From: Cellulomonas sp. JZ18
GTDB taxonomy: Bacteria; Actinomycetota; Actinomycetes; Actinomycetales; Cellulomonadaceae
Reading direction: 5' to 3'
Assembly (NCBI RefSeq): GCF_009720485.1
Contig: NZ_CP045245.1
Coordinates: 1,302,001-1,366,000, forward strand
Length of the DNA: 64,000 nucleotides
Below the pieces are notes generated by a model. It made no database searches and was not told the DNA's origin. It saw only the letters and a list, made by a program, of their open reading frames with translations. The position numbers were made by a program, and so were the translations under genes. Each line of letters begins with the position of its first letter. Within the stretch, counting starts at the first letter, position 1. Positions 1 through 27,498 of this stretch are shown piece after piece.

Positions 1-1042
1 CGAGGGGCAGACCGGGGAACCCGAACACGAAGTGCTGGGTGCCGTCGAGCGCGACCGGGCCCGAGTCGAGCATCGAGCTGGTGGTGGAGTAGAGCGTCAG
101 CCCCAGGGGCGTCGTGATGGCGACGCCGATCTCCGCCGCCTCGACCCGGGTCTCGGCACGGGTCTCCATGGCGACGAGAAGGGTGCCGCCGGGCTCGATC
201 GTCGGGTGCTGCTCGTCGCCCTCCGGCGTGCGCAGCGAGATGCCCGTGAAGACGGCCTTCGGGGTGCCGGCCCCGCCCGCGCTGCGTGCGGACTCCTCCT
301 GCCGGTGCGCCTCGAAGTCCGCGCGGAGCTTCTTCAGCCCCTCCCGCGCGCTGCCGTCGGCGACGACCTGCCCCTGCTCGAGCACCACCGCGCGGTCGCA
401 GAACTCCGCCACCTGGTCCAGGCCGTGCGTCACGAGCACGATCGTGCGGCCCTCGCTCTGGAACGTGCGGATGCGCTCGAGGCACTTGCGCTGGAACGGC
501 TCGTCGCCGACCGCGAGCACCTCGTCGACGAGCAGGATGTCCGGGTCCACGTGGACGGCCACGGCGAACGCGAGCCGCACGTACATGCCCGACGAGTAGA
601 ACTTCACTTGCGTGTCGATGAACTGCTCGATGCCCGAGAAGTCGACGATCGCGTCGAAGTAGCGGTCGATCTCCGAGCGCGACAGGCCGAGGATCGACGC
701 GTTGATGTAGACGTTCTCGCGGCCGGTGAGGTCGGGGTGGAAGCCCGCGCCCAGCTCGAGCAGAGCCGCGAGCCGGCCGCGCACCTGGACGGACCCGCGG
801 TCGGGCAGCAGGATCCCGCTGACCATCTTCAACAGCGTGCTCTTGCCGGAGCCGTTCGGGCCGATCAGCCCGACGGTGGCGCCCGAGTGGATCTCGAGGT
901 CCACGTCCCGCAGGGCCCAGAAGTCTTCCTTGTAGGTGTTCGACCGCTGGCGGTTGACCACGCGCTCCTTGAGCGACTTGTCCTTGCGGATGACGAAGCG
1001 CTTCGAGACGTTGTCGACGCGGACGACGACGGGCCTGCTCAT
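1..1042 (-). CDS. Polysaccharide ABC exporter ATP-binding subunit (Wzt/TagH type), C-terminus cut by window edge
   Basis: This is the cytoplasmic ATPase that should power export of a lipid-linked polysaccharide or teichoic-acid-type polymer through the permease just upstream. Visible: Walker A GPNGSGKS at about residues 61-68, an ABC signature region (YSSGMYVRLAFA), and a Walker B/D-loop stretch LLVDEVLAVGD. After about residue 260 a further domain begins, as in the Wzt/TagH group, whose C-terminal extension binds the polymer end. The ATG (1042-1040) shares one base with the permease stop (TGATG), so the two are translationally coupled. The 3' end runs off the window, so the C-terminal domain is incomplete. 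The family call is firm; the exported polymer is inferred from the locus. Confidence 0.93.
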   Translation of the reverse strand, partial: MSRPVVVRVDNVSKRFVIRKDKSLKERVVNRQRSNTYKEDFWALRDVDLEIHSGATVGLIGPNGSGKSTLLKMVSGILLPDRGSVQVRGRLAALLELGAGFHPDLTGRENVYINASILGLSRSEIDRYFDAIVDFSGIEQFIDTQVKFYSSGMYVRLAFAVAVHVDPDILLVDEVLAVGDEPFQRKCLERIRTFQSEGRTIVLVTHGLDQVAEFCDRAVVLEQGQVVADGSAREGLKKLRADFEAHRQEESARSAGGAGTPKAVFTGISLRTPEGDEQHPTIEPGGTLLVAMETRAETRVEAAEIGVAITTPLGLTLYSTTSSMLDSGPVALDGTQHFVFGFPGLPL

Positions 1043-1944
1043 CACAGCTCCTGAGCGAAGTTGCCCTGGAGGCGGGCGAAGGCGCGCTGCCCGACCCAGA
1101 GCAGGACGAGACCCACGGCGAGCACCACACCAAGGCGCGCAGTGAGGTCGGGGGGCACGGGCTGGCCGTCGCCGGCCACCCAGAACGTCTGCTGGAAGCC
1201 GAGCACCGCCAGGGTGATCGGGTTGGTGAGGTACAACTGCTCGACCAGCGGGCCGACGTTGTCCTGCACGAGGCGCCAGGGGTACACGATGGGCGACGCC
1301 CAGAACAGGAGCGTGAGGGCCACCTCGACCAGGTACTGCACGTCCCGCAGGTAGACGTTGGCGGCGGACAGCAGCAGCCCGAGGGCCGTGCTGAACGTCA
1401 GCAGCACCGCCACGGACAGGGGCAGGTACATCCAGCGGGTGCCGCCGGGTACCTGCTGCGCGACGACGGTGGCGCCGAGCAGGATCACGAGCTGCACGAG
1501 GAAGTTGAACCCCGCCGAGCCGACGGCCGCGAGGGGAAACACCTCGCGCGGGACGTAGACCTTCTTGATGAGCCCGGCGTTCTGCACGACGGACACCGTC
1601 GAGGAGCTCAGCACCTCCGAGAAGAGCGTCCAGGCGGTGATGCCGCAGTAGATGAAGATCGCGAACTGCGGCGTGCCGCGTGCCGCACCGAGGAACTGGC
1701 CGAGCGCGACGTAGTAGACGAGCAGCATCGTCAGGGGACGCACCAGGCTCCAGACGAACCCGAGGGTGCTGTCCTTGTACCGGGACTTCAGCTCGCGGCG
1801 CACCAGGTGCGACAGCAGCTCGCGGTGCCGGACGATGTCGCGCAGCGACGCGACCGTGCCGCGGAAGAAGCCCTGACGCGTCCCGGAGTCGCGGAACGGG
1901 AGCGCGGACAGCTCCTGAGCGCGGACATCGGCAGGCGTGGTCAT
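1042..1944 (-). CDS. ABC-2 type polysaccharide exporter permease (Wzm/TagG type)
   Basis: A 300-residue integral membrane protein of the ABC-2 family that forms the channel for polysaccharide export with the ATPase it overlaps. After a charged N-terminus containing the amphipathic region typical of these permeases (SHLVRRELKSRYKDSTLGF, about residues 45-63), six hydrophobic segments follow. The phrase LGFVWSLVRPLTMLLVY marks the first. Length matches Wzm/TagG permeases (about 260-300). It is the first gene of a two-gene unit read leftwards; a strong hairpin separates it from the repeat-protein gene upstream. Substrate is not shown by the sequence; the surrounding glycosyltransferases make a surface glycan the likely cargo. 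Confidence 0.92.
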   Translation of the reverse strand: MTTPADVRAQELSALPFRDSGTRQGFFRGTVASLRDIVRHRELLSHLVRRELKSRYKDSTLGFVWSLVRPLTMLLVYYVALGQFLGAARGTPQFAIFIYCGITAWTLFSEVLSSSTVSVVQNAGLIKKVYVPREVFPLAAVGSAGFNFLVQLVILLGATVVAQQVPGGTRWMYLPLSVAVLLTFSTALGLLLSAANVYLRDVQYLVEVALTLLFWASPIVYPWRLVQDNVGPLVEQLYLTNPITLAVLGFQQTFWVAGDGQPVPPDLTARLGVVLAVGLVLLWVGQRAFARLQGNFAQEL

Positions 1945-2063: not shown

Positions 2064-3320
2064 TCAGGACGTGACGACGTCCCGGCAGCCGAGCAGCGTG
2101 TGCGGTCCCGCACCGGTGTTGATGGCGTACACGCACACGCTGTGCCGACCCGGTGCCACCGTCCGCGAGTGCCCGAAGCCGCGCGTGGCGGTGGTTCCGT
2201 ACGCGGCCGCGACGTCGGCACGCACGAGGTCGGCCCGCAGCGCGGTGCCCACCCCGTCGACGTAGACGTGCACGTCGGTGGGGTCGCTCGTGTCGGGGTC
2301 CCAGGTCCAGCCCGAGACGTCGATGCGGTCGCCCGTCGCCTGGACCTGCTCGAGGGAGCCCACGGGGGTGCGTCCGGGGTCGGTCGGCGGGACCTCGACG
2401 TCGCGGCACCCCAGCAGCGTGTGCGCGCCAGGTCCGGTGTTGATCGCGTAGACGCACACGGTGTGCCGCCCCGGGGCCGCGGTGCGGGCCTGCCCGAAGC
2501 CCCGCGTCGCCGTCGTCCCGTAGGCGGCGGCGACGTCACCACGCGTGAGGTCGGCCCGTGCCACCGTCCCGACGCCGTCGACGTAGACGTGCACGTCGGT
2601 GGGGTCGCTCGTGTCGGGGTCCCAGGTCCAGCCCGAGACGTCGATGCGGGTGCCGGTCACCTCGACCGACTCGAGGGCACCCACAGGGCTGAGGCCGCGA
2701 TCGGGCACGCGGACCTCGACGTCTCGGCAGCCGAGGAGGGTGTGCGGTCCCGCACCCGTGTTGATGGCGTAGACGCAGACGGTGTGCCGACCGGGGCCGA
2801 CCGTGCGCGAGTGCGCGAACCCGCGCGTGGCCGTCGTCCCGTACGCGGCCGCGACGTCGGCGCGGGGCAGCTCGGCGCGCGTGGCGGTGCCGGCGCCGGC
2901 GACGTACACGTGCACGTCCGTCGGGTCGCTCGTGTCGGGGTCCCAGGTCCAGCCCGAGACGTCGATACGCGTGCCGGTCACCTGGACGGACTCCAGCGCG
3001 CCGACCGGGCTGAGCCCGCGGTCGGGTGCCACCGCGTCGACGTCGCGGCACCCCAGGAGCGTGTTGGCGCCGCCGCCCACGCCGATCGCGTACACGCAGA
3101 CCGTGTGCCGGCCCGGGGTGACGGTGCGCGAGTGCGCGAACCCGCGGGTGGGCGTCGTGCCGTACGCGGCCGCGACGTCCGCGCGCGGGAGGTCGGCCCG
3201 GGCCGCGGTGCCCACCCCGTCGACGTAGACGTGCACGTCGGTGGGGTCGCTCGTGTCGGGGTCCCAGGTCCAGCCCGAGACGTCGATGCGCGTGCCGGTC
3301 ACGTGGACGGACTCGAGGGC
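2064..3320 (-). repeat. Four tandem 321-bp coding repeats
   Basis: The last four domain repeats of the secreted protein recur at the DNA level with an exact 321-bp (107-codon) period. The same motif beginning gtgcacgtc is found at 2268, 2589, 2910 and 3231. Stretches of more than 60 bases are unchanged or nearly so between units. The first repeat (upstream of 3320) is clearly more divergent and offset by 309 bases. This looks like recent expansion or gene conversion, and it is a likely site for assembly collapse or slippage. Confidence 0.85.
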
Positions 3321-4478
3321 TCCGCGCGGGGCCTGGTCGACGACCGTCACCTGCGTGCAGCCGAGCAGCGAGAACGGCGCGCGGGAGACGCCCATCGAGT
3401 AGACGCACACCGAGCGCACGCCGGGCGCCGCCGGGACGGTCGCGCGGAAGCCGTGCCGGTCGCCCATGCCGAAGGCGGCGGCGATGTCGGGCCGCACCTG
3501 GTCGGCCACGACCCGCGTCCCGACACCGTCGACGTACACGTGGACCTCGTTGCTCGTCGAGGTCGCGGGGTCCAGTGCCCACCCGGAGACGGTGACGGAC
3601 GAGCCGGTCGTCGTGACGGACTCGACCCGGCCGGTCGGGTCGCCGGCGTCGGGCCGGCCGAACCAGTCCGTGTAGTAGGACCAGAAGTTGCGGTTGCCGT
3701 ACGACGAGCACGCGTCGCCCGTGCCGTAGCCGGCGGCGAGGGCCGCGGCGTTGGGCTGGTACGGCGTGTAGTTGTAGAGGCTCGCCGTCGCCTGGTTCGC
3801 GATGAACACGGGTGCCGAGCCGCAGGCCGCGTTCGGGTGGAAGCGCACGTTGACCGTCACGCCCGGCCGGTGGGCGTACCGGGTGGGGTTGAGGGCGTAG
3901 CTGTTGAACTGCCAGGCGGCCTGGTACACCTGGTTGAAGAAGCCGTAGTACCGCGCGTCGCACGCCGCGGTGTCGGGGCAGCCGAAGCCCATGGCGGACC
4001 GGTAGCGCGTCGCCGTGAGGGACGAGCCGCTCGCGGTGACGAGCCCCTGCTCCTTCTGGAGCGTCACCAGGAGCACCCGCGGGCTGATGGAGCAGGCCAC
4101 GGCCACCTTCGTGATGATCTGGGCGGCGGTCTCGCCCGCCGCCCCCTGGTAGGCGCCGCGGCAGCGGTCGTCGGCGGGGCGCGAGGTCGTGTCGAACCGC
4201 GCGTGCCGCAGGCAGGGGGTGCCGTCCGGTCCGGGCACGCACGACGGTGCCCGTGCGTCGAGGAACGCCTGCACCTGCGCGGCGGTCATGGCCCCGGCGT
4301 CGGTGAACGCGCGGTCGGTGATGATCAGTCCCGGGTCGAAGCGCGACAGGTCCGCGGCCCTCGCCTCGGTGGACGGCACCGTGACGAGCGCCAGCAGCGC
4401 GAGGACGGCGAGGACGGTGCTGGTGCCGCGGCGCAGGACCGTCGGGGGACGGCGGGACGGCGTGGTGCTGACGGTCAC
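2064..4478 (-). CDS. Secreted protein with five C-terminal repeats of about 107 residues
   Basis: An 804-residue exported protein. Residues 1 to about 41 form a signal peptide: arginines, a Leu/Val/Ala-rich core, then EARAAD. Residues about 45-280 form an N-terminal domain seen in actinobacterial secreted proteins, with several cysteines and aromatic-rich motifs (YGFFNQVYQAAWQFNSYAL); its function is not known to me. From about residue 284, five repeats follow, each built as GALESV..SGWTWDPDTSD..VHVYVDG..DVAAAYG...VCVYAINTG...LLGC. Each carries a conserved Cys pair that could form a disulfide outside the cell. Repeats 2-5 are nearly identical. The GTG start overlaps the stop of the upstream lipoprotein gene (GTGA). 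The same repeat ends the amidase encoded divergently nearby, so a shared wall- or glycan-binding role is inferred. Confidence 0.85.
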   Translation of the reverse strand: MTVSTTPSRRPPTVLRRGTSTVLAVLALLALVTVPSTEARAADLSRFDPGLIITDRAFTDAGAMTAAQVQAFLDARAPSCVPGPDGTPCLRHARFDTTSRPADDRCRGAYQGAAGETAAQIITKVAVACSISPRVLLVTLQKEQGLVTASGSSLTATRYRSAMGFGCPDTAACDARYYGFFNQVYQAAWQFNSYALNPTRYAHRPGVTVNVRFHPNAACGSAPVFIANQATASLYNYTPYQPNAAALAAGYGTGDACSSYGNRNFWSYYTDWFGRPDAGDPTGRVESVTTTGSSVTVSGWALDPATSTSNEVHVYVDGVGTRVVADQVRPDIAAAFGMGDRHGFRATVPAAPGVRSVCVYSMGVSRAPFSLLGCTQVTVVDQAPRGALESVHVTGTRIDVSGWTWDPDTSDPTDVHVYVDGVGTAARADLPRADVAAAYGTTPTRGFAHSRTVTPGRHTVCVYAIGVGGGANTLLGCRDVDAVAPDRGLSPVGALESVQVTGTRIDVSGWTWDPDTSDPTDVHVYVAGAGTATRAELPRADVAAAYGTTATRGFAHSRTVGPGRHTVCVYAINTGAGPHTLLGCRDVEVRVPDRGLSPVGALESVEVTGTRIDVSGWTWDPDTSDPTDVHVYVDGVGTVARADLTRGDVAAAYGTTATRGFGQARTAAPGRHTVCVYAINTGPGAHTLLGCRDVEVPPTDPGRTPVGSLEQVQATGDRIDVSGWTWDPDTSDPTDVHVYVDGVGTALRADLVRADVAAAYGTTATRGFGHSRTVAPGRHSVCVYAINTGAGPHTLLGCRDVVTS

Positions 4479-5059
4479 GGGATCTCCATCGGCGTCAGGC
4501 GGGCCTCGCCTGAGGTGGTCGGGGACACGTAACGGACCGAGCCCGTCCAGGTGCCCGGTGCGAGACGGTCACGCGCGACCGACATGAGCCCGCAGCTGGT
4601 CGTCGACGCGTCGGCGAGCGCGGGCTGGGAGGTGCGCGCGGACGCGCCCCCGGGGCCCTCGAGCGTGAGGGTGCACTCGCCGCCCTGCTCGACGACCGAC
4701 ACGTACGCGCTGACCTCGACCGCGGCGGTGCCGGGCTGCCACTGCGCGGAGGTGACCACGACCTCAGCCGTACCGGGCGCCGCCGGGGGCACGGCGCCGG
4801 GGTCGGCCGGGACCGGCTGGTCCGGAGCCGTCGGGGCAGCGCCGGGCGCGGGGACGTCGGCGGTCGCGGACGGCGTGGCCGTCACGGTGGGGGCGGACGT
4901 GCGCGACGCGGTCGCGGACGGCGAGGGCCGCTGGGCGGTGCCGTCGACGCAGCCCACGAGCACCAGGACGACGGCGACGGCCGGGACTGCGGCGCGCCAC
5001 CCGCGCGGAGGACGGGCGTGTCGCGACGACGTCGCGACACGCGGGCTGTTGACCTGCAC
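4475..5059 (-). CDS. Putative lipoprotein of unknown function
   Basis: The predicted product starts with an Arg-rich segment, a hydrophobic run (VAVVLVLVGC) and a lipobox whose Cys is residue 37. It should therefore be a lipid-anchored surface protein of about 157 residues after processing. A Thr/Ser/Pro/Ala-rich linker follows, then a beta-rich domain of about 90 residues with two cysteines (GECTLTLEGPGG, TSCGLMSV), resembling a small Ig-like extracellular fold. I chose the GTG at 5059 because GGAGG lies 4 bases upstream; an in-frame ATG at 5107 would add 16 residues before the signal. It overlaps the repeat-protein start by 4 bases, so the two are probably one operon. The specific function is unrecognised. 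Confidence 0.75.
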   Translation of the reverse strand: MQVNSPRVATSSRHARPPRGWRAAVPAVAVVLVLVGCVDGTAQRPSPSATASRTSAPTVTATPSATADVPAPGAAPTAPDQPVPADPGAVPPAAPGTAEVVVTSAQWQPGTAAVEVSAYVSVVEQGGECTLTLEGPGGASARTSQPALADASTTSCGLMSVARDRLAPGTWTGSVRYVSPTTSGEARLTPMEIP

Positions 5060-5149
5060 CTGGCCTCCGATCGTCCAGCACTGACGCGTGTCATGATCAC
5101 ATGTCATCGCGTGCGCGCCGTTGCGCCACGTCCGGGGGGACCAACGGGA

Positions 5150-5740
5150 GTGAACGTGCGAGCTGTCGTCCTGCTCGTCGCGGCGTCCGTCGCGCTGGGG
5201 TCCGTCCCCGGCGCGACCACCGCGGCCGGACCTGACCCTGCAGCCGTCCCGGGCGGCGCTCTCGCCCCCGCCGGCACTGCGCCGTCGCGTACTGCGCCCG
5301 GGCCCGCCACCCGGCCGGTCCTCGAGGAGGTGCCGCTCGCGGGCGTCGACCCGGCCGCGCTGCCGGACCTGCCGGACGAGGCGGCCGCACTCGTCGCCGA
5401 GGAGGCGGTGGTCCCGGTGGTGCCGTCGTCGGTGCCGCAGGGCGGGCACCCGGCCACCGACCCCGCGCCCGGCGACACGGGGCGAGCCCCGGCCGAGGGC
5501 GGCGCGGCCGGTACGCCGGACGAGGCGCCGGACGAGGGGACGGGGGTGCGGGCCGCGGACGAGCCGGCGGCCGCCGACGCCCTGGCCGCGGCCGCGTCGA
5601 CGGCGGACGACGCGGCCGAGATCGAGACGGAGAACGCGGCGGAGAACGAGATCGAGGGCGCCGCGGGGCCGGTGAGCAGCCCGCGGCGCCGGCCACGGCC
5701 GCCCGCAGCGCCGCTCCGGTGCCCACGCCCGACGTCCTGA
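5150..5740 (+). CDS. Signal-peptide part of the PGRP-type amidase, separated by a frameshift
   Basis: The GTG at 5150 opens a reading frame with a clean signal peptide (VRAVVLLVAASVALGSV..AAG) and a long Ala/Pro/Glu-rich linker, but no catalytic domain. The frame runs into stop 5740. The amidase domain continues in the next frame. Adding one G to the GGGG run at 5665-5668 joins them smoothly (the linker then reads GAGEQPAAPATAARSAAPVPTP), giving one secreted protein spanning 5150-8241. I read this as one gene broken by a sequencing-type indel. The alternative is that the amidase is now unexported. It is divergent from the lipoprotein gene, with a gap of about 90 bases for both promoters. Confidence 0.7.
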   Translation: MNVRAVVLLVAASVALGSVPGATTAAGPDPAAVPGGALAPAGTAPSRTAPGPATRPVLEEVPLAGVDPAALPDLPDEAAALVAEEAVVPVVPSSVPQGGHPATDPAPGDTGRAPAEGGAAGTPDEAPDEGTGVRAADEPAAADALAAAASTADDAAEIETENAAENEIEGAAGPVSSPRRRPRPPAAPLRCPRPTS

Positions 5741-8241
5741 CCGACGAGATGGACACGCGCGAGTTCAGCGTTCTCGGCTTCACGTGGGACCCGGGGCCGA
5801 CCGACGTGACGGTCGCCTTCCGGGTCCGCGAGGCGGGGGAGTGGTCCGACTGGCAGCCGGTCGGCGGCGGTGACGTCGTGCCCGACGCGGACTCGCTCGA
5901 CGCCGCGCGCAGCACGCGCGCGGGCACCGACCCGGTGGTCACCACGGGCGCCGACGGGCTGCAGGTCTACGCGGACTCGCCGACCGGCGCCGTGACCGGC
6001 CTGCGTGCGGTGCTCGTCGACCCGGGCGTGCTCCCGCAGGACTCCGCGGACGCCGTCGCCGCCGCCACCGTCGCGGTGCCGGGCCAGCCGGCGATCGTGG
6101 AGCGCGCGGGGTGGGGCGCCGACGAGTCGCTGCGGCCCTGCCAGCCCGACTACTCGCCCGCGATGCGGGCGGTCGTCGTGCACCACACCGCCTCCGCCAA
6201 CGGCTACTCCGCCGACGCCGTGCCCGGCATCATCCGCGGCTTCTACGCCTACCACGTGCAGAGCCGGGGCTGGTGCGACATCGGCTACAACGTCCTCGTC
6301 GACCGGTTCGGGCGCGTCTTCGAGGGACGCGCGGGCGGTCTGACCTCGACCGTGGTGGGGGTGCACACCGGCGGCTTCAACAGCCGCACCGTCGGGGTCG
6401 CGGCGATCGGGGACTACGGGTCGACGGGCGTGCCGGGCGCGCTGCTCGACGGCCTCGTGTCGGTCATCTCCTGGAAGGCGGCGATCCACAACATCCCCGG
6501 CGACCAGCAGGTGACGCTGGTGTCCGGGGGCGGTGACACCAAGTTCCCCGCGGGCACGCCGGTGTCGTTCCACACGATCTTCGGCCACCGCGACGCGCAG
6601 TACACGTCGTGCCCCGGGCAGAACCTGTACGACCTGCTGCCCACGATCCGCGCCCGCGTCGCGGCGGCCGCGAACGCCGCCGTCGCCGCGACGCCGGTGG
6701 GCAACTGGGAGCAGCTCGACACGACCCCCTCGTCGCTGACGGTCTCGGGGTGGGCGCTCGCCCGGGGAGACACCTCCCCGCTCTCGGTCGTCGTGCGGGT
6801 CGACGGACGGCCCACGACGATCACGGCCGACCAGGACCGTCCGGACATCGGTGCCGCCTACCCGGGTTCCGGCAGCAGGCACGGGTTCGCGCTCACGCTG
6901 CCCCAGACGCCGGGGCGCCACGTCGTCTGCGTGGAGGTCGTCCGGCCCGGCGGCGTCGGCGTGGTCGCGCTCGGCTGCCGCACGGCGGACGTCGTCAACC
7001 GCGCCCCGCTGGGCGCGGTCGACGTGCTGCGCCTGCAGGGCAGGACGCTGCAGGTGTCCGGCTGGACGTTCGATCCCGACACGCGCGAGTCCACCAGCGT
7101 CCACGTCTACGTGGGCGCACGGGGTGCCGTCGTACCCGCGGACCGCTCGCGTCCGGACGTGGGCGCCGCCTACCGGCGCGGCGACCGGCACGGGTTCGAG
7201 TACACGACGACCGTGCCTGAGGGCAGGCACACCGTGTGCGTCTACGGCATCGACTCCGCGGGCGGCCCGCCGACGGTGCTGCGCTGCACGGACGTGCAGG
7301 TCGGGGCTTCGCCGGTCGGCGCCCTGGAGGCCGTGACGCTGCAGGGCACCACCCTGCGGGCGAGCGGGTGGGCGTTCGACCCCGACGACGACGGCCCCGG
7401 CACCGTGCACCTCTACGTCGACGGCCGGGGCACCGCGCTCACGGCGGACGTGGAGCGCCGGGACGTCGGCACCGCCTACGGACGCGACCCGCGCGTCGGG
7501 TTCACCGCGACCAGCACGGTCGGGGCCGGCCGGCACGAGGTGTGCGCGTGGGCGATCGACTCGGGCGGCGCGCCGCCCGTGGCGCTCGGGTGCCGCACGG
7601 TCGAGGTGCGCGACGCCGCGCCCGTCGGGGTGCTCGAGTCGGTGAACGTCTCGGGTCGGTCCGTGGTCGTGCAGGGCTGGGCGTTCGACCCGGACTCGGC
7701 AGGCCCGACCAGCGTGCACGTCTACGTCGGCGCGACCGGGGTCGCCGTCGCGGCGGACCTGCAGCGCACCGACGTGGGGACGGCGTACGCGCGTGACCCG
7801 CGCACCGGCTTCACCGCGACCGGCGCGCTGCAGGTCGGCGCGAACTCGGTGTGCGCGTACGCGATCAACACCGGTGGTGCACCGCACGCGCTGCTCGGGT
7901 GCCGCGAGGTGGTCCTGCGGGACGCGCCGCCGGTGGGTGCGCTCGAGCGCGTCGAGTGGGTGGAGCGCTCCGGCGGCGCGGTCGACGTGTGGGGCTGGGC
8001 GTTCGACCCCGACCTCCCGGGTCCGACCGACGTCCACGTCTACGTGAACGGCCGCGGTATCGCACGGGCTGCGACGTGGGAGCGGACCGACGTGGGTCGC
8101 GCCTACGGGCGCGACCCGCGCGTGGGCTTCTACGTGGCGGTCCCGGTGGCCCGGCGCGAGCCGCAGGAGGTCTGCGTCTACGCCATCAACGGCTGGGGTG
8201 CGCCGCACACGTCGCTCGGCTGCCGCGTGGTGGTCGGGTGA
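5719..8241 (+). CDS. PGRP-family N-acetylmuramoyl-L-alanine amidase with five C-terminal repeats
   Basis: Predicted to cleave the amide bond between MurNAc and the stem peptide of peptidoglycan. The domain from about residue 127 to 320 contains RAGWGADES, the Zn-ligand region VVVHHTASANGY (about residue 153), and later FGHRDAQYTSCPG with the second His and the Cys ligand. Five repeats of about 103 residues follow, each with SGW.FDPD, VHVYV, D(V/I)G.AY, and a VC.YAI...GC cysteine pair. These are the same domains as in the secreted protein at 2064-4478, though more diverged. The ORF lacks an export signal in its own frame; the missing signal peptide lies upstream at 5150 in another frame. The stop overlaps the next GTG (GTGA), coupling it to a glycosyltransferase. 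Confidence 0.88.
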   Translation: MPTPDVLTDEMDTREFSVLGFTWDPGPTDVTVAFRVREAGEWSDWQPVGGGDVVPDADSLDAARSTRAGTDPVVTTGADGLQVYADSPTGAVTGLRAVLVDPGVLPQDSADAVAAATVAVPGQPAIVERAGWGADESLRPCQPDYSPAMRAVVVHHTASANGYSADAVPGIIRGFYAYHVQSRGWCDIGYNVLVDRFGRVFEGRAGGLTSTVVGVHTGGFNSRTVGVAAIGDYGSTGVPGALLDGLVSVISWKAAIHNIPGDQQVTLVSGGGDTKFPAGTPVSFHTIFGHRDAQYTSCPGQNLYDLLPTIRARVAAAANAAVAATPVGNWEQLDTTPSSLTVSGWALARGDTSPLSVVVRVDGRPTTITADQDRPDIGAAYPGSGSRHGFALTLPQTPGRHVVCVEVVRPGGVGVVALGCRTADVVNRAPLGAVDVLRLQGRTLQVSGWTFDPDTRESTSVHVYVGARGAVVPADRSRPDVGAAYRRGDRHGFEYTTTVPEGRHTVCVYGIDSAGGPPTVLRCTDVQVGASPVGALEAVTLQGTTLRASGWAFDPDDDGPGTVHLYVDGRGTALTADVERRDVGTAYGRDPRVGFTATSTVGAGRHEVCAWAIDSGGAPPVALGCRTVEVRDAAPVGVLESVNVSGRSVVVQGWAFDPDSAGPTSVHVYVGATGVAVAADLQRTDVGTAYARDPRTGFTATGALQVGANSVCAYAINTGGAPHALLGCREVVLRDAPPVGALERVEWVERSGGAVDVWGWAFDPDLPGPTDVHVYVNGRGIARAATWERTDVGRAYGRDPRVGFYVAVPVARREPQEVCVYAINGWGAPHTSLGCRVVVG

Positions 8242-9395
8242 CGGACCCGGTGGAGCAGCGGGGCGCGCCGTCCCTGGCGGCCACCGCGCCGCTCGCGGTC
8301 GCCCTCACCGTCGAGCAGTGCTGGCAGCCGGTCCCGGGCGGTTCCGGGACGTACATCGCCGAGCTGGCGCGTGCGCTGCGCGGCGTGCCCGACGTCGCGC
8401 CGGTCGGCCTCGCGGCACGGCACGACGCGGCAGACGTCCCGGCCGTCCCGCCGGGCCTGCCCGTGCGGCACGCCACGCTGCCGCGCGCGCTGCTGTACGA
8501 GGCGTGGAACCGGACGCGGCGGCCGCGGGCCGAGGCCACCGTCGACGTGGAGGTCGTGCACGCCACGACGTGGGCGGTGCCCGGTACCCGCCGGCCCCTC
8601 GTGGTGACCGTGCACGACCTCGCCTTCCTCCGCGAGCCGGCGCACTTCACGCGGCGCGGCAACGCCTTCTTCCGGCGTGCTCTGCGCGTGGTGCGCGACG
8701 AGGCCGCGCGCGTGGTCGTGCCGTCCCGCGTGACGGCGGACGAGTGCGTCGCGGAGGGCATCGAGGAGTCGCGGCTGGTGGTCGTCCCGCACGGGGTGCG
8801 CGCCGCCGTCGTCGACGGCGAGGCGCGTGCCGCATGGCGGGCGGGGACGGGCGTCACCGGGCCCTACGTGCTGTGGTGCGGCACGCTCGAGCCGCGCAAG
8901 AACGTGCCCGCCCTGGTGCACGCCTTCGCGCGGGCCCGGGCCGCCGGCGAGCTCGCCGACCGCACGCTCGTACTGGTGGGTCCCGCGGGCTGGGGCACGG
9001 CGGGTGCGGAGGTCGAACGTGCCCTGGCGTCGCTGCCGCCGGGAGCGGTGCGGCTGCTGGGACGGCTCGGGGACGCAGACCTGCAGGTCGCGTACGCCGA
9101 GGCCGAGGCGTTCGCCTTCCCGTCCCTGCGCGAGGGGTTCGGGATGCCCGTGCTCGAGGCGATGGCTCACGGGGTCCCCGTCGTCACGTCCCGTGCCAGC
9201 GCCATGGCCGAGGTCGCCGGCGGTCTCGCCGAGCTCGTCGAGCCGACGGACGTCGACGCCCTCGCGGCCGGGCTCGTGCGCGCGTGCGCGACCCCTGCGC
9301 CCGTGCGCGAGCGCATCCGCGCCCACGCGGCCGCGTGCACCTGGGAGGCGAGCGCGCAGGCGCACGCCGCCGTCTACCGGTCCGTCAGGCCCTGA
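8238..9395 (+). CDS. Glycosyltransferase family 4
   Basis: A GT-B fold retaining glycosyltransferase of about 385 residues. The N-terminal half has the glycine-rich acceptor region (PVPGGSGTYIAELARAL). The C-terminal half has LEPRKNVPALVHAF and the nucleotide-sugar binding E-x7-E motif in SLREGFGMPVLEAMAHGVPVV. It should act in the cytoplasm on a lipid-linked glycan intermediate. The GTG start overlaps the amidase stop by 4 bases. Its 3' end overlaps the convergent GT2 gene by 11 bases, so antisense interference is possible. It shares the PRKN..ALV region with the GT4 genes at 10446-11536 and 18360-19496, suggesting paralogues. Donor and acceptor sugars are not predictable. Confidence 0.9.
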   Translation: MTDPVEQRGAPSLAATAPLAVALTVEQCWQPVPGGSGTYIAELARALRGVPDVAPVGLAARHDAADVPAVPPGLPVRHATLPRALLYEAWNRTRRPRAEATVDVEVVHATTWAVPGTRRPLVVTVHDLAFLREPAHFTRRGNAFFRRALRVVRDEAARVVVPSRVTADECVAEGIEESRLVVVPHGVRAAVVDGEARAAWRAGTGVTGPYVLWCGTLEPRKNVPALVHAFARARAAGELADRTLVLVGPAGWGTAGAEVERALASLPPGAVRLLGRLGDADLQVAYAEAEAFAFPSLREGFGMPVLEAMAHGVPVVTSRASAMAEVAGGLAELVEPTDVDALAAGLVRACATPAPVRERIRAHAAACTWEASAQAHAAVYRSVRP

Positions 9396-10449
9396 GCCCG
9401 CCGCTCGGCGCGGGCGGTACGAGCAGGCGCTCGACCTCCGCCCGCGTCACGCGCGCCCGCCGGCCGATCGTCCGCCGGCGCGCGAGCATCGCCGGTAGCA
9501 GGCGCACGTACGACGCGAGGACGCGCAGGCGGACGCGGACCTCCCCTCGGGACCCGTGCCGGCGCAGCGCGACCGACGCGGTCGTGACGACGAACCGCAG
9601 CACGGCCGCCACGGCGCGGCGCGCGGTCGCGTCCTTGGTGAGCAGCAGCAGGCGGTTGCGCCAGTCGTGGAACCGGAACAGGTCGCTGCCCTCCCGCGTG
9701 GACGCCGCGTGCTCGTGGTGCAGCACGGCGTCCTGCGCGTACTCGACCCGGTAGCCGGCCAGGCGCAGCCGCCAGGACAGGTCGGAGTCCTCGTAGTAGA
9801 GGAAGAAGTCCTCGTCGAACAGTCCGACGTCGCGCAGCGCGTCCGTCCGCAGCGCCACGCCCGCCCCGCAGAACCCGAACACCTCACGTGGCGGGTGGTG
9901 GCCGTCGGCACGCGCGAGCCACCCCCGGTCCACCCCGTAGCCGTCGGTGCGCAGCACGTTGCCGGTCGAGTTCACCAGCAGCACGTCGCCGGCCGGGTCG
10001 GCCACCCAGCGCCCGTCGGGACCCACGACTGCGCTCTCCCCGTCGGCGGCCGGGCGGAAGCGGTCGGCGAGCAGGACGCGGCCGGTGACGGCGGCGACCT
10101 CGGGCGCCGCCGCCCGCAGGTGCCCGACGAGCCGCGCGACGAACGTGGGCTCCGGCACGGCGTCGTTGTTGAGCAGCACGACGACGGGGGAGTCGACCGC
10201 TCGCAGCGCGAGGTTGTTGCCGCCGGCGAAGCCGCGGTTGACGTCGGAGACGACGACCTGCACCTCGGGGTGCGCGGCGTGCACGGCCTCCGCCGTCCCG
10301 TCGCGGGAGTCGTTGTCGACGACGACGACGTGCATGCGCAGGCCGTCCAGCTCCTGCCGCGCCAGGCCCTCGAGGCACCGCAGGACGAGAGCGCGCGCGC
10401 GCCAGGTGACGACGACCACCGTGACGTCGGCGGTCGCGACGCCGTTCAC
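9385..10449 (-). CDS. Glycosyltransferase family 2 (rhamnosyltransferase-like)
   Basis: An inverting GT-A enzyme of about 354 residues. The N-terminus VTVVVVTWRARALVLRCLEG leads to VVDNDSRDGT (nucleotide binding), GFAGGNNLAL, and the DxD-type site LLNNDAVPE. Later VGLFDEDFFLYYEDSDLSWR carries the predicted catalytic-base region of WbbL-like rhamnosyl/galactofuranosyl transferases. Basic segments near the C-terminus (RRRTIGRRARV) suggest membrane association. GTG 10449 overlaps the stop of the upstream GT4 (GTGA), so the two form a unit. Given rmlA/C/D in the same locus, dTDP-rhamnose is a reasonable donor, but this is inference. Confidence 0.9.
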   Translation of the reverse strand: MNGVATADVTVVVVTWRARALVLRCLEGLARQELDGLRMHVVVVDNDSRDGTAEAVHAAHPEVQVVVSDVNRGFAGGNNLALRAVDSPVVVLLNNDAVPEPTFVARLVGHLRAAAPEVAAVTGRVLLADRFRPAADGESAVVGPDGRWVADPAGDVLLVNSTGNVLRTDGYGVDRGWLARADGHHPPREVFGFCGAGVALRTDALRDVGLFDEDFFLYYEDSDLSWRLRLAGYRVEYAQDAVLHHEHAASTREGSDLFRFHDWRNRLLLLTKDATARRAVAAVLRFVVTTASVALRRHGSRGEVRVRLRVLASYVRLLPAMLARRRTIGRRARVTRAEVERLLVPPAPSGGLRA

Positions 10450-11536
10450 GCGGCCGCCCGGACGTACGCCTCGACCGTGCGGTCCGCCGTCGCCGCCCAG
10501 GTGAAGCGGCCGGCCCACGTGCGGCGCGCGCTCCGGGCGGCCTCGTCGTCCGGGGCCGCCAGCACGTTCAGCAGTCCCTGCGCCAGGGCGTCCACGTCGC
10601 GCGGGTCCGCCAGCACCGCGTGACCGCCCGCGACCTCGCGCAGCGCCGGGACGTCCGCGGCGAGGACGGGCCTGCCCGCGGCGAGCGCCTCGAGGACCGG
10701 CAAGCCGAACCCCTCGTCGAGCGACGGCAGGGCGAGCGCGCGGGCGCCGGCGACGAGGTCGTGCAGCTCCCGGTCCTCCAGCCACCCGGTCGGTACGACG
10801 TGCGGGACGTCGTCGGGCGGGGCGCCGCGCCCGGCGGGCCCCGCGAGCACGAGCGAGAGGCCCGCCACCTGCGCGGCCCGGAAGGCGGCGAGCAGGCGCG
10901 GCAGGTTCTTGCGGGGACCGAGCGCGCCGACGAACAGCACGTAGTCGCCCGGGATCCCGTGCGCGCGGCACCAGTCCGCGGTGGGTGGTGCGGCCCGCGA
11001 CCAGGCGGGGTCCACCCCAGGGGAGTGGCGGTGGTGCGGCCGGCGTCGAGGCCGTAGTGCGCCCGCACCTGCGCGGCGACGTGCTCCGAGGGCGTCAGCA
11101 CGTGGGCACCCCGGTCGAGGGCCCGCGGCACGAGCCGGCGGTAGGCGAGGTCGGCGGGCGCCACCGTGTCGGCGTGGTGGACGTACGTCAGGTCGTGCAC
11201 CGTGACCACCTCCGCCGCGCGTCGGGCGGGCGGCGAGACGAAGTTGGTCCCGTGGAAGACGTCCGTGCGCCCGACGAGGGCCTCCACGGGCGGGAACGCG
11301 GCGGTGCCCCACGCGCTGCGCAGGGCGCGGGCCGGCGCCGGCGGGCCGACCTGACGCACGCCCGGGGGCAGGTCCGTGAGGCGGTGGCCGCGCATCGTCC
11401 AGGTCGACACCCGCAGGTCCGCGTCGAGGCCCGCGCGCCGTGCCGCGGAGGGGAGCTCGGCGAGCAGGTGGGCGGCGTACCGGCCGATGCCGGTGCGGGG
11501 CCCGAGCAGGGGCGTGGCGTCCAGGGTGATCCGCAC
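10446..11536 (-). CDS. Glycosyltransferase family 4, split by an apparent single-base frameshift
   Basis: The N-terminal half (RITLDATPLLGPRTGIGRYAAHLL, HGTNFV, VVTVHDLTYVHH) lies in one frame. The C-terminal half (VDPAWSRAAPPTADW, FVGALGPRKNLPRLLAAF, SLDEGFGLPVLEALAAGRPVL) lies in another. The break is at the CCCC run 11015-11018 (GGGG on the coding strand). One extra G gives TPLGVDPAW and a complete GT-B protein of about 363 residues, the normal family length. As written, translation would stop early. I treat it as an intact gene with a sequence error. The GTG at 11536 starts the protein; the stop overlaps the GT2 start (GTGA). A sugar transferase of the surface-glycan pathway; substrate unknown. 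Confidence 0.82.
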
Positions 11537-11670
11537 GCCGCGATGATCCCACGGCGGCGCGGACCGCCTGTCCCGGCCGGGGGTGCACGTGGTCCGACTA
11601 GACTCGCGCGTCGGCGTCCCGGTGCCGGCAGGTCGAGGGACCTCCTCGGGGCGGCCAGGACGGAGGACCG

Positions 11671-14169
11671 GTGAGCCGATCGCCCAAGCAGGAGCCCGCG
11701 GTGCGCCCCGGCGTCGTCTCGGTGGTGGTCGTGAACTACCGCGGCGCGGACGACACCATCGCCTGCGTGCGCGGCCTCGGCGAGCTCGACTGGCCCGCGG
11801 ACCGCCTCGAGGTGATCGTGGTGGAGAACGCGTCGGGGGACGACTCGGCCGAGCGGATCCGGGCGGCCTGCCCGGACGTGCTCCTCGTCGAGGCGGGCTC
11901 GAACACCGGTTTCGCGGGCGGCTGCAACCTCGGCGTCGCGCACGCGAGCGGCGAGTACGTCGCGTTCCTCAACAACGACGCGCGTCCCCATCCCGCGTGG
12001 GTGTCCGCCGCGGTCGCCGTGCTCGAGACCGAGCCCGACGTCGGCGCCGTCGCCAGCAAGGTCCTGGACTGGGAGGGCGAGCGGATCGACTACGTCGACG
12101 GGTCGCTCACCTGGTTCGGCATGGGGTACAAGCGCGAGGTCGAGGACGTCGACGACGGGTCGCACGACCGGCCGCGGGACGTGCTGTTCGGCACGGGGGC
12201 CGCCATGTTCGTGCGTGCGGCGCTGTACCGCGAGGTCGGCGGGTTCGACGAGCGGTTCTTCATGTTCTACGAGGACGTGGACCTGGGCTGGCGCCTCAAC
12301 CTGCTCGGCCACCGGGTGCGGTTCGTCCCCGGCTCCCTGGCGTACCACAAGCACCACGCGACGATGGACAAGTTCGGCAGCTACCGCGAGAGCTACCTGC
12401 TCGAGCGCAACGCGCTGATGTCGCTGTACAAGAACCTCGACGACGCCTCGCTGGCGCGTGCCCTGCCCGCCGCGATGGCGCTGTCGGTGCGCCGCTCGGT
12501 GGCGCGCACGGGCACGGACGCGACGGTGCTGGACCTGCAGCGCAGCCCCGGCGGCGAGGACGAGGACACCCTGACCCTGCCGAAGATGGCGCTGACGGGT
12601 CCCTTCGCGATCGACTACCTCGTCGAGCAGATGCCCGGCCTCGCCGCCACCCGCGCGGAGCTGCAGACCCGCCGGCGCCGCACCGACCGCGAGCTGTTCC
12701 CGCTGTTCCGCCGCGCGCTCGAGCCGGCGTACCCGCACCCGGCGTACGTGCGCGGTCACGACGCGCTCGTCGAGGCGTTCGGCATCGCCGGGCACTTCGT
12801 GTCGCGCCTGCGGGTGCTGGTCGTGACGGGGGAGCCGCTCACCGAGCGCATCGCCGGCCCGGCCATCCGGGCCTGGGAGATCGCCGCCGCGCTGTCGGCG
12901 GACCACGAGGTGCGGCTCGTGTCGTCGCGCGGCGCGGAGGTGAGCGACCCGCGCTTCTCGGTCGAGCACGTCCGGCCCAAGGAGCTGCGGCAGGTCACGG
13001 ACTGGGCCGACGTCATCGTCTTCCAGGGCTTCCTGCTCGACGGGGCGCGCTGGCTGCACCGCAGCAAGCAGATCCTGGTCGCCGACGTCTACGACCCGAT
13101 GCACCTCGAGCAGCTGGAGCAGGCGCGCGACCTCGGGCCCGAGGGGCGCCGCGCGCAGGTGCGCGCGGTCACGCAGGTGCTCAACGACCAGCTGCGGCGC
13201 GCGGACTTCCTGCTCTGCGCGTCCGAGAAGCAGCGCGACTTCTGGCTCGGCCAGCTCGCCGGCGTCGGGCGGGTGAACCCCGCGGTGTACGACGAGGACG
13301 CGTCGCTCGACAACCTCATCTCGATCGTGCCGTTCGGCATCCCCGACGAGCCGCCCGTGCAGCGACGCCACGCCATCAAGGGCACGGTGCCCGGCATCGG
13401 TCCGGACGACAAGGTCATCCTCTGGGGCGGCGGCATCTACAACTGGTTCGACCCCCTCACGCTCGTGCGTGCAGTCGCGCGCCTCGCGCAGTCCCGCCCC
13501 GAGGTGCGCCTGTTCTTCCTCGGGACGAAGCACCCGAACCCCGGCGTGCCGGAGATGCAGGTCGCGTACGAGACGCGACGTCTGGCGGACGAGCTCGGCC
13601 TGACCGACCGGGTCGTGTTCTTCAACGACGGCTGGGTGCCCTATGCCGAGCGCGCGGACTACCTGCTGGACGCCGACGTCGGCGTGTCCACGCACTACCA
13701 GCACGTGGAGACCGCCTACAGCTTCCGGACCCGGATCCTCGACTACCTCTGGGCGGGCCTGCCCGTCGTGGCCACCGACGGTGACGCGTTCGGCGAGCTG
13801 GTCCGCGAGCGCGGGCTCGGCGTCGCCGTGCCGTCGGAGGACGTCGACGCGCTGGTCGCCGCGCTCGACCGGATGCTCTTCGACGAGCCGGCCCGGGACG
13901 CCGCCCGTTCCGCGGTCGCGGCGATCGCGCCCGAGTTCGCCTGGTCGCGGACGCTCGCGCCGCTCGTCGAGTTCTGCCGGTCGCCGCGCCGGGCGGCCGA
14001 CCTCGCGGCGGAGCTCGGCGAGCCCGAGCCCGAGTCGAGCGTCCCGCCGCCGCCGTGGGGCGGTGTGCGGGGTGACATCGCCCTGCTCCGGCAGTACCTG
14101 GAGGACGGCGGCGTGGCCGAGGTCGTGCGCCGCGCGTCGGGCCGCGTGCGCCGGGTCGTCGGGCGCTGA
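11671..14169 (+). CDS. Bifunctional glycosyltransferase: GT2 domain fused to GT4 domain
   Basis: An 832-residue protein with two transferase modules. Residues about 10-300 are GT2: VVSVVVVNYRGADDTI, NTGFAGGCNLG, the FLNNDARPH site and GGFDERFFMFYEDVDLGWR. Residues about 385-780 are GT4-like: LVVTGEPLTERIAGPAIRAWE, LWGGGIYNWFDPL, and TRILDYLWAGLPVVATDGD near the usual donor-binding region, although the canonical E-x7-E is degenerate. A short tail follows. The GTG is preceded by GGAGG with 4 bases between. Such a fusion would let two successive sugars be added by one polypeptide. Linkages are not predictable. Confidence 0.88.
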   Translation: MSRSPKQEPAVRPGVVSVVVVNYRGADDTIACVRGLGELDWPADRLEVIVVENASGDDSAERIRAACPDVLLVEAGSNTGFAGGCNLGVAHASGEYVAFLNNDARPHPAWVSAAVAVLETEPDVGAVASKVLDWEGERIDYVDGSLTWFGMGYKREVEDVDDGSHDRPRDVLFGTGAAMFVRAALYREVGGFDERFFMFYEDVDLGWRLNLLGHRVRFVPGSLAYHKHHATMDKFGSYRESYLLERNALMSLYKNLDDASLARALPAAMALSVRRSVARTGTDATVLDLQRSPGGEDEDTLTLPKMALTGPFAIDYLVEQMPGLAATRAELQTRRRRTDRELFPLFRRALEPAYPHPAYVRGHDALVEAFGIAGHFVSRLRVLVVTGEPLTERIAGPAIRAWEIAAALSADHEVRLVSSRGAEVSDPRFSVEHVRPKELRQVTDWADVIVFQGFLLDGARWLHRSKQILVADVYDPMHLEQLEQARDLGPEGRRAQVRAVTQVLNDQLRRADFLLCASEKQRDFWLGQLAGVGRVNPAVYDEDASLDNLISIVPFGIPDEPPVQRRHAIKGTVPGIGPDDKVILWGGGIYNWFDPLTLVRAVARLAQSRPEVRLFFLGTKHPNPGVPEMQVAYETRRLADELGLTDRVVFFNDGWVPYAERADYLLDADVGVSTHYQHVETAYSFRTRILDYLWAGLPVVATDGDAFGELVRERGLGVAVPSEDVDALVAALDRMLFDEPARDAARSAVAAIAPEFAWSRTLAPLVEFCRSPRRAADLAAELGEPEPESSVPPPPWGGVRGDIALLRQYLEDGGVAEVVRRASGRVRRVVGR

Positions 14170-20162: not shown

Positions 20163-20245
20163 CGTCTCCCTCTCGACGTGTGCGTGCGTCCGCCACCCTA
20201 CCGAGCGCCTACCCTGGCCCTGGTCGTCGAGAGCGGGGAGTGGAC

Positions 20246-21091
20246 GTGCGCTGGCTTGTCGTGGGTGCCGCGGGGATGCTCGGGCAGGACGTGGTCGCGC
20301 GTCTGCACGAGCTCGGCGAGGACGTCCGGGGCGTCACGCGGGACGACGTCGACGTGACGGTCCCGGCGGCCGTCGACGCCGTCGTGCGGGACGTGGACGT
20401 CGTGGTCAACTGCACCGCGTACACCGCGGTGGACGCGGCGGAGACCGACGAGTCCACCGCGTTCGCGGTGAACGCCGTCGGGCCCGCCCTGCTGGCCCGG
20501 GCGGCCGCCCGGGCCGGAGCCCGCCTGGTGCACCCCTCGACCGACTACGTCTTCGACGGGACGGCGACCGCGCCGTACGACGAGGCCCATCCGCCCGCGC
20601 CGCGCTCCGCGTACGGGCGGACGAAGGCCGCGGGGGAGTGGGCGGTGCGCGCGCACTGCGCCGACCACCTCGTCGTCCGGGTCGCCTGGCTGTACGGCGC
20701 GCACGGCTCGTGCTTCCCGCGCACCATCGCCCGTGCCGCCGCCGAGCGCGGGTCGCTGGACGTCGTGGCCGACCAGGTGGGCCAGCCGACGTGGACCGTC
20801 GACGTCGCGGACCTCGTGCACCGGCTGGTGCGCGCCGGTGCGCCGTCGGGCACCTACCACGGCACGTCGGCCGGCAGCACCTCGTGGTTCGAGTTCGCCC
20901 GCGCGGTCGTCGAGGCGGCCGGCATGGACCCCTCCCTCGTGCAGCCGACGACGAGCGAGGCGTACGTCCGGCCGGCGCCGCGCCCTGCCTACTCGGTGCT
21001 CGGGCACGACGCGCTCGGCGCCGCGGGCGTCACCCCGATCGGCGACTGGCGGGAGCGCTGGCGGGCGGCCGCTCCCGCGGTGCTCGCCTGA
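20246..21091 (+). CDS. rmlD: dTDP-4-dehydrorhamnose reductase
   Basis: Last enzyme of dTDP-L-rhamnose synthesis, reducing the 4-keto group with NAD(P)H. About 281 residues with Rossmann motif VVGAAGMLGQD at the start, VVNCTAYTAVDAAE, HPSTDYVFDG, and the YxxxK site YGRTKAAGE. PAPRPAYSVL near the C-terminus is also typical. I chose the GTG at 20246 because GGGGAG lies 5 bases upstream and the protein then begins VRWLVVGAAG; a GTG at 20240 is too close to that site. Divergent from rmlC. With RmlA and RmlC it leaves only RmlB missing from the pathway. Confidence 0.9.
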   Translation: MRWLVVGAAGMLGQDVVARLHELGEDVRGVTRDDVDVTVPAAVDAVVRDVDVVVNCTAYTAVDAAETDESTAFAVNAVGPALLARAAARAGARLVHPSTDYVFDGTATAPYDEAHPPAPRSAYGRTKAAGEWAVRAHCADHLVVRVAWLYGAHGSCFPRTIARAAAERGSLDVVADQVGQPTWTVDVADLVHRLVRAGAPSGTYHGTSAGSTSWFEFARAVVEAAGMDPSLVQPTTSEAYVRPAPRPAYSVLGHDALGAAGVTPIGDWRERWRAAAPAVLA

Positions 21092-26628: not shown

Positions 26629-27498
26629 TCAGCGCTCCTGCTCGAGCAGCCCCAGCAGGTACGCGCCGTACCCGGACTTCACGAGGCGCTCGGCGCGCTC
26701 GCGCAGCTCGTCGTCCGACAGGAAGCCCCGGCGCCACGCGACCTCCTCCGGCGCGCCGACCTTGAGGCCCTGGCGGTGCTCGATCGTCCGGACGAAGTCC
26801 GAGGCCTCGAGCAGCGAGTCGAACGTGCCGGTGTCGAGCCACGCCGTGCCGCGGGGGAGCACCTCGACCTGCAGGCGGCCCTGCTCGAGGTAGGCCCGGT
26901 TCACGTCGGTGATCTCGTACTCGCCGCGCGGCGAGGGCTCCAGGTCGCGCGCGATGGCGACGACGTCGTTGTCGTAGAAGTACAGGCCGGGCACCGCGTA
27001 GCTGCTCTTGGGCTGTGCCGGCTTCTCCTCGAGCGAGAGCGCGCGCCCGGCGGCGTCGAACTCCACGACGCCGTACGCGGTCGGGTCCGCGACCCGGTAG
27101 GCGAACACGGCGCCGCCGTCGATGTCCTCGAACCGCTGCAGGCGGCTGCCGAGCCCGGGCCCGTAGAAGATGTTGTCGCCGAGCACGAGCGCCGCGGAGT
27201 CGTTCCCCACGAAGTCGGCGCCGAGGACGAACGCCTGCGCGAGCCCGTTCGGCTGCTCCTGCACCGTGTAGGTGATGGAGATGCCGAACTGCGAGCCGTC
27301 GCCGAGCAGGCGGCGGAACTGGTCCGCGTCGTGCGGCGTCGTGATCACCAGGACGTCCCGGATGCCCGCGAGGATCAGCGTCGAGAGCGGGTAGTAGATC
27401 ATCGGCTTGTCGTAGACGGGGACCAGCTGCTTGCTCACGCCGAGGGTGATGGGGTGCAGCCGGGTGCCCGAGCCGCCGGCCAGGATGATTCCGCGCAT
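26629..27498 (-). CDS. rmlA: Glucose-1-phosphate thymidylyltransferase
   Basis: First enzyme of dTDP-L-rhamnose synthesis, joining glucose-1-phosphate and dTTP to dTDP-glucose. The 289-residue protein, the short RmlA form, begins [17 protein letters not shown] with the nucleotidyltransferase signature, then [63 protein letters not shown] and [21 protein letters not shown] ends 8 bases upstream of the ATG, consistent with a leaderless or very short leader. It stands alone here; rmlC and rmlD are 7 kb upstream, and rmlB is not in the window. Confidence 0.94.

Follow-up and report, generated by a model that had tools for sequence, protein, structure and literature searches.

The window analysed here, a stretch of 64,000 nucleotides, comes from the environmental actinobacterium Cellulomonas sp. 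JZ18 (NZ_CP045245.1, positions 1,302,001-1,366,000, forward strand). Near its start, two genes on opposite strands encode proteins that end in the same kind of array of five repeat units, preceded in one by a lysozyme-like head and in the other by a PGRP-type amidase domain. We consider, with moderate confidence, that the two work together as peptidoglycan hydrolases, secreted and provided with matched wall anchors, at the place where the polymer of the neighboring polysaccharide locus is inserted. The basis for this reading is provided by the repeats, the predicted folds, the conserved residues, the linkage of the genes, and the matching of the tails that follow the two heads. The features concerned are the following, in window positions:

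2064..4478, minus strand: 804-residue exported protein, with a signal peptide (recognized by eye), a predicted lysozyme-like head and five repeat units
3633..4358, minus strand: predicted lysozyme-like head, residues 41-282 (about 240 residues), with the predicted catalytic Glu143 at 4050-4052
3327..3635, minus strand: repeat unit A1, divergent first unit
3018..3326, minus strand: repeat unit A2
2697..3005, minus strand: repeat unit A3
2376..2684, minus strand: repeat unit A4
2067..2363, minus strand: repeat unit A5, C-terminal
4475..5059, minus strand: lipoprotein gene, 194 residues (lipobox LVGC and start codon by eye)
5150..5670 (3' edge approximate), plus strand: signal peptide and low-complexity linker of the amidase, in another frame than the catalytic domain (frame plot)
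5719..8241, plus strand: amidase frame as first listed, 840 residues
6163..6621, plus strand: Amidase_2 / PGRP catalytic domain (PF01510, 57.5 bits, cut-off 26)
6697..7008, plus strand: repeat unit B1, divergent first unit
7009..7314, plus strand: repeat unit B2
7315..7623, plus strand: repeat unit B3, the unit modelled
7624..7932, plus strand: repeat unit B4
7933..8238, plus strand: repeat unit B5, C-terminal

A preliminary description of this DNA had reported five cysteine-paired units of about 105 residues in each protein, and this is borne out. The units follow each other at 102-107 residues, and those of the 804-residue protein (A) share 33-52% identity with those of the amidase (B), with alignment scores of 140-260, whereas 400 shuffled pairs reached 14 at most. 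Identity among units A2-A5 is 80-85%, and A1 is 47% identical to B1. Of the motifs said to mark every unit, A1 has DPA in place of DPD, and B1 lacks DPD as well as VHVYV. The ten units of the window have fifteen invariant columns. In an alignment of 117 units (seven of these ten, and 110 from the named loci introduced below, which hold 404 units, thinned to less than 55% identity), Gly18 is invariant, and Trp19, Asp22, Ala44, Arg48, Asp50, Gly62, Gly72, Cys77, and Cys93 reach 90%. The last two occur together in 116 units and are missing together from one; the repeat cysteines presumably form disulfides. Structure prediction, run for unit B3, suggests an FnIII/Ig-like fold.

Searching the genome with one unit gave ten matches (E <= 0.001), every one in the two frames. 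Profile searches of the repeat against Pfam, NCBIfam, and the PDB returned no match that exceeded a cut-off or had an E-value under 0.05, and the best Pfam match of single units (E 0.0011) was under the family cut-off. TIG matches the 804-residue protein at 20.6 bits (cut-off 20.9) and four of the 117 units below cut-off, and Big_7, equally below cut-off, matches 14 of them (best E 0.0011). Elsewhere, PHROG 37136 matches 29 residues of the 804-residue protein weakly (E 7.7e-5), and BFVD gave two matches at E <= 0.001 with uninformative names. A phage-borne lysin wall-binding domain was considered and rejected: the tail had no match in 50,697 phage records, and none of 18 pattern matches in viral contigs was confirmed.

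The head of the 804-residue protein had been described as being of unknown function; its predicted structure now points to the lysozyme-like superfamily. Glu143 is situated close to a helix end (helix 93-104 of the modelled fragment), and is invariant among the aligned relatives, as are other polar residues of the head in this putative fold. We predict that the head cuts glycan strands. It exceeds the cut-off of no Pfam or NCBIfam family, and its assignment to GH73 (PF01832) was rejected on sequence: with matches admitted up to E 0.1, none of 50 head rows hit that family, and profile-profile comparison showed no relation to it. The head matches 6816 of 8000 scored candidates. Among 120 relatives listed, the UniRef names are mostly "hypothetical protein", "hemagglutinin", and LGFP-repeat protein. 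Five relatives (L192, L193, L199, L200, and L201) are tailless, with 18-35 residues after the head, and at least two nearby glycosyltransferase (GT) segments were found in 0/5 of them.

The other head had been recognized as an amidase, rightly so given its PF01510 match, the only one in the genome. Its His, His, and Cys, which we take to be the zinc ligands, are invariant over 30 aligned rows, and the protein is predicted to be a zinc amidase that separates the stem peptide from the glycan strand. Both proteins had been called exported. This fits the 804-residue protein, but the amidase frame from 5719 lacks a signal peptide, which is found with the linker in another frame, starting at 5150. 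The third-position GC signal indicates that the coding frame switches at about 5650-5700, and in six relatives (L011, L013, L015, L107, L109, and L126) a signal-like stretch and a linker, seen by eye, lie in the amidase's own frame. The window's gene thus has an indel, either a sequencing error or a real one, in which case the gene would be without export in this strain.

We compared the tails in two sets of loci. The 95 head-retrieved loci include 20 and then another 20 from the window's family, 15 from further places, and 40 chosen for long open frames, a choice that under-represents tailless heads. The head occurs in 40 genomes of the family, and the first 20 regions come from 20 of these, which were picked for long contigs and include the window's own. 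The 76 named loci were retrieved with the repeat, which biases tail agreement among them, and they were left out of that count. Genomes G225, G268, G714, and G793 give two loci each, and the two sets overlap at one locus (L126 and L055). Tail kinds were assigned by matches to a hidden Markov model (HMM) of the repeat (SGW tails) or by BLASTP clusters (the others), with Pfam names checked for L220 and L115 only. Head relatives carry several unrelated tails (SGW, LGFP-like, DUF4214, and several unnamed kinds), and a quick tree built from 102 heads shows at least 18 changes of tail kind. This tree leaves out L178, where the contig ends and which is counted among six loci with no tail or a cut one. 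One frame piece of L123 was also left out; the lysozyme-like gene is split there across two frames (L123:8874-11252, genome G414).

A PGRP gene is also present in 14 of the 95 head-retrieved loci, 13 of which are informative (in L194 the amidase is cut by the contig end). Head and amidase have tails of one kind in 12 of these 13 loci, with L173 as the sole disagreement (permutation p 1.5e-5, uncorrected for relatedness). The matches cover five kinds: eight loci have SGW tails, including the window's own, and one each has LGFP (L220), DUF4214-type (L115), VYVV (L122), and n4 (L196) tails. In L220 the LGFP assignment is confirmed by Pfam for both partners, and so is the DUF4214 assignment for the tail of the L115 head, with which the L115 amidase tail shares 93.5% identity over 201 residues; the two tails of L122 are 71% identical over 496 residues. 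With the named loci included, 20 SGW pairs were listed, 19 of which have tails that are 39-60% identical, the other (L107) being at 80%. The partner's tail is the closest amidase tail in 6 of the 20 pairs and not in the other 14. These values imply that recent exchange fails to explain most pairs, and recent gene conversion was therefore rejected as the sole cause of matched tails. The VYVV-type tail (class n1, found on 16 heads; L122:8190-9710) gave no Pfam match for L122.

Both heads accompany polysaccharide loci. When regions of 20 kb centered on the head were compared, at least two GT segments were found in 12 of the 20 first regions and in none of 40 controls, which are shifted regions of the same genomes, all from the window's own family. 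These counts used seven queries from the window (E <= 1e-6), and later ones, for the head-retrieved loci and the recounted controls, used eight (with the GT4 gene at 18360; E <= 1e-5), while one further count combined the eight queries with E <= 1e-6, such that distant GT genes may be missed. A glycan signature, defined as at least two GT segments, or the permease, or RmlA/RmlD, occurs in 54/95 head-retrieved loci and in 0/40 controls under the same rule. By tail, it is found with 19/21 SGW, 14/16 VYVV (n1), 2/2 DUF4214, 2/6 n2, 2/6 n3, and 0/4 n4 tails, with 1/3 of three singletons, and with 1/6 of the loci with no tail or a cut one. Among the named loci, the signature accompanies 47 of 49 with the lysozyme-like head, all six with the PGRP domain only, and 7 of the 21 that lack the two heads (Fisher p 1.6e-8). 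Hence, the head is linked to the locus more strictly than the tail (53/55 with either head against 7/21 with neither). The preliminary description had proposed a shared wall or glycan anchor, perhaps recognizing the polymer made by the same locus. One shared tail on two predicted wall enzymes at a glycan locus is supported, and this linkage recurs in relatives far more often than in the controls. A shared anchor agrees with the matched tails and the mixed heads and has gained support; recognition of the local polymer would be a possibility at most.

In the window itself, the polysaccharide genes are these:

2..1045, minus strand: ABC transporter ATPase, cut by the window end (PF00005, 74.8 bits)
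1042..1944, minus strand: ABC-2 permease of the polysaccharide-export type, Wzm-like (PF01061, 62.5 bits)
8238..14169: glycosyltransferase genes of Pfam GT2/GT4 families (8238-9392 plus, 9388-10500 minus, 10449-11588 minus, 11671-14166 plus)
20180..21088, plus strand: RmlD-type dTDP-sugar reductase (PF04321, 309 bits)
26632..27498, minus strand: nucleotidyltransferase, RmlA-type by our reading (PF00483, 254.6 bits)

The window also holds DegT and hexapeptide genes, besides the GT4 gene at 18360. The ATPase has a weak Wzt_C match (PF14524, 28.1 bits), below the cut-off of 30.4. The permease gene lies about 120 bases downstream of the gene of the 804-residue protein, on the same strand. In the 63 loci with both head and permease, the two share a strand in 30 and are less than 500 bases apart in 7, and a close order was rejected as a general rule. 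Two LCP genes, and no others, were found in the genome (G000:C1:1295416-1297586); they precede the window by 4 to 7 kb and lie beyond the ABC exporter. LCP genes were rejected as constant neighbors, since they are near 11 of 94 relatives only.

The two hydrolase genes had been placed divergently, a few hundred bases apart. The frame 2064-4478 is on the minus strand, and the space holds the lipoprotein gene, the stop of which overlaps the start of the 804-residue gene by 4 bases. The lipoprotein has a cysteine-containing C-terminal domain, and its longer frame (4478-5449) had no Pfam match up to E 1. Similar sequences occur in 19/76 named loci, 21/95 head-retrieved loci (own included), and 0/40 controls. 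They lie on the 5' side of the head and on the same strand in 39 of the 40 loci with a match; in L069 the gene is behind the head gene.

Under the reading that we favor, the lysozyme-like protein would cut glycan strands and the zinc amidase would cut the stem peptide from the strand, while both would be held in the wall by one type of array, made of five FnIII/Ig-like units with disulfide bonds. The pair would belong to a wall-glycopolymer locus with a Wzm/Wzt-type exporter, glycosyltransferases, dTDP-rhamnose-type genes, and two LCP ligase genes nearby, and would most likely open or remodel peptidoglycan where the polymer of this locus is inserted. The lipoprotein from the overlapping upstream gene would probably be a membrane-side partner. 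That the shared tail is a cell-wall anchor is suggested by its matching between partners and by the mixed heads that carry the repeat. We infer from the observations that the head is an active enzyme, that the units have disulfides, that the tails bind the wall through some ligand there, and that the pair takes part in inserting the polymer.

Several observations weigh against this. Foldseek gave no PDB match at E <= 0.001 for the model of the head or that of the unit, and profile-profile comparison of the head with PF01832 gave an hhalign probability of 0.25% (with a 121-row PF01832-type set from one family branch); a second such comparison also found no relation. The window's own amidase is frameshifted, in the linker. 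The repeat is also carried by proteases and a nucleotidase elsewhere, and some matched tails look homogenized; both points are taken up below. Two of the matches rest on little, the one in L196 on 81 residues and the one in L185 on an amidase with one recognized unit. No glycan genes appear in 41 of the 95 head-retrieved loci, and heads with LGFP-like tails are often away from detected ones (signature in 13/31). LCP genes are rarely near (11/94, against 0/40 controls), and a permease adjoining the head gene is not general. SGW tails have at least two GT segments nearby more often than LGFP-like ones (13/16 versus 6/19, Fisher p 0.006), but this raw contrast is unsupported by the few tree-independent pairs (6 pairs; means of 3.2 in favor and 1.1 against; median p 0.63), and we do not claim a tail-specific glycan linkage.

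The tails might instead be structural spacers or generally adhesive FnIII-like domains, matched through gene conversion of neighboring repeat ends. It is general knowledge that FnIII/Ig-like domains are frequent spacers, and the predicted fold of the unit is of this type. Some matched tails also look homogenized between neighbors, since those of L107, L115, and L122 are 71-94% identical (80, 93.5, and 71%, respectively), and in 6 of 17 cases tested the repeat sits on unrelated heads (Trypsin in two, reprolysin-like, GH16, 5'-nucleotidase, and CAP). Yet, the low identity of 19 of the 20 SGW pairs, and the 14 in which the partner is not the closest, disagree with such conversion, and the matched tails span families as different as LGFP, DUF4214, and SGW. 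We regard this explanation as rather unlikely. It is far less probable that the head is an adhesin or a sugar-binding "hemagglutinin" without enzyme activity. Several of the 120 relatives listed do carry the UniRef name Hemagglutinin, but we found no source for it, and Glu143 and the other polar residues are invariant in the predicted lysozyme-like fold. Lastly, a wall-cutting head with a targeting module is typical, as generally known, of secreted lysins, and the proteins could be weapons against competitors, with repeats aimed at foreign walls. This seems highly improbable, since in many relatives they are linked with polysaccharide genes of the producer itself, and since they are also linked to a lipoprotein gene; the lack of a tail match in the 50,697 phage records, and of a confirmed one in viral contigs, also speaks against it, for phage lysins only.

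If the head does cut the wall and the tail is an anchor that can be exchanged, many actinobacterial surface proteins could be annotated, and the matched tails would make it possible to test directly how peptidoglycan cutting in a Gram-positive cell is targeted to the site of wall-polymer addition. A bolder and doubtful extension, which we put forward tentatively, is that actinobacteria keep a swappable "tail code", in which the tail families (FnIII-like SGW repeats, LGFP, DUF4214-type, and others) are polymer-recognition modules that change jointly on both enzymes with the glycopolymer of the locus. Tail type would then predict polymer type.

The closest worked-out precedent that we know of is found in Clostridioides difficile. 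Tandem CWB2 repeats anchor wall proteins there, the ligand is the glycopolymer polysaccharide II, and the authors propose its locus (PMC4973711). The pair described here would work alike without belonging to that system: CWB2 is absent from the Pfam matches of both proteins up to E 1, anchoring is here a prediction, and the locus is linked to the hydrolase heads more than to the repeat. The LGFP repeat (PF08310) occupies this C-terminal position in relatives of each of the two heads, and on both L220 partners, but its unit has 53 positions and it has no match in the two proteins or in the genome. GH73 glucosaminidases and lysozyme-like hydrolases such as LytB and AtlE resemble the head in the predicted fold and in an invariant Glu near a helix end, whereas the head falls outside PF01832 and has no profile-profile relation to it. 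The amidase is like other PGRP / Amidase_2 proteins in its PF01510 domain and its conserved His/His/Cys, and differs in its tail, the repeat of which is in no Pfam or NCBIfam family. Finally, the C-terminal domain of EfAmi1, an amidase of an Enterococcus faecium prophage, is a single domain of 139 residues, predicted to be an eight-stranded barrel and proposed by the authors to be a carbohydrate-binding module (PMC10167349). It has an RPDV..AYG....GF-type motif in common with the repeat, and a weak profile match (E 0.089 over 65 positions).

A search of an open-licence library gave no published account of the repeat or of the head. The lysozyme-like head family, the tail family without a database entry, the recurrent overlapping lipoprotein gene, and the matched tails are new. 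Outside actinobacteria, the clearest named locus, judging by record titles, is from a Ruminococcus metagenome-assembled genome (L082:5322-10519), where two neighboring proteins, one of them with a GH25 head, have three spaced copies of a repeat related to this one and dockerin-like ends (by eye).

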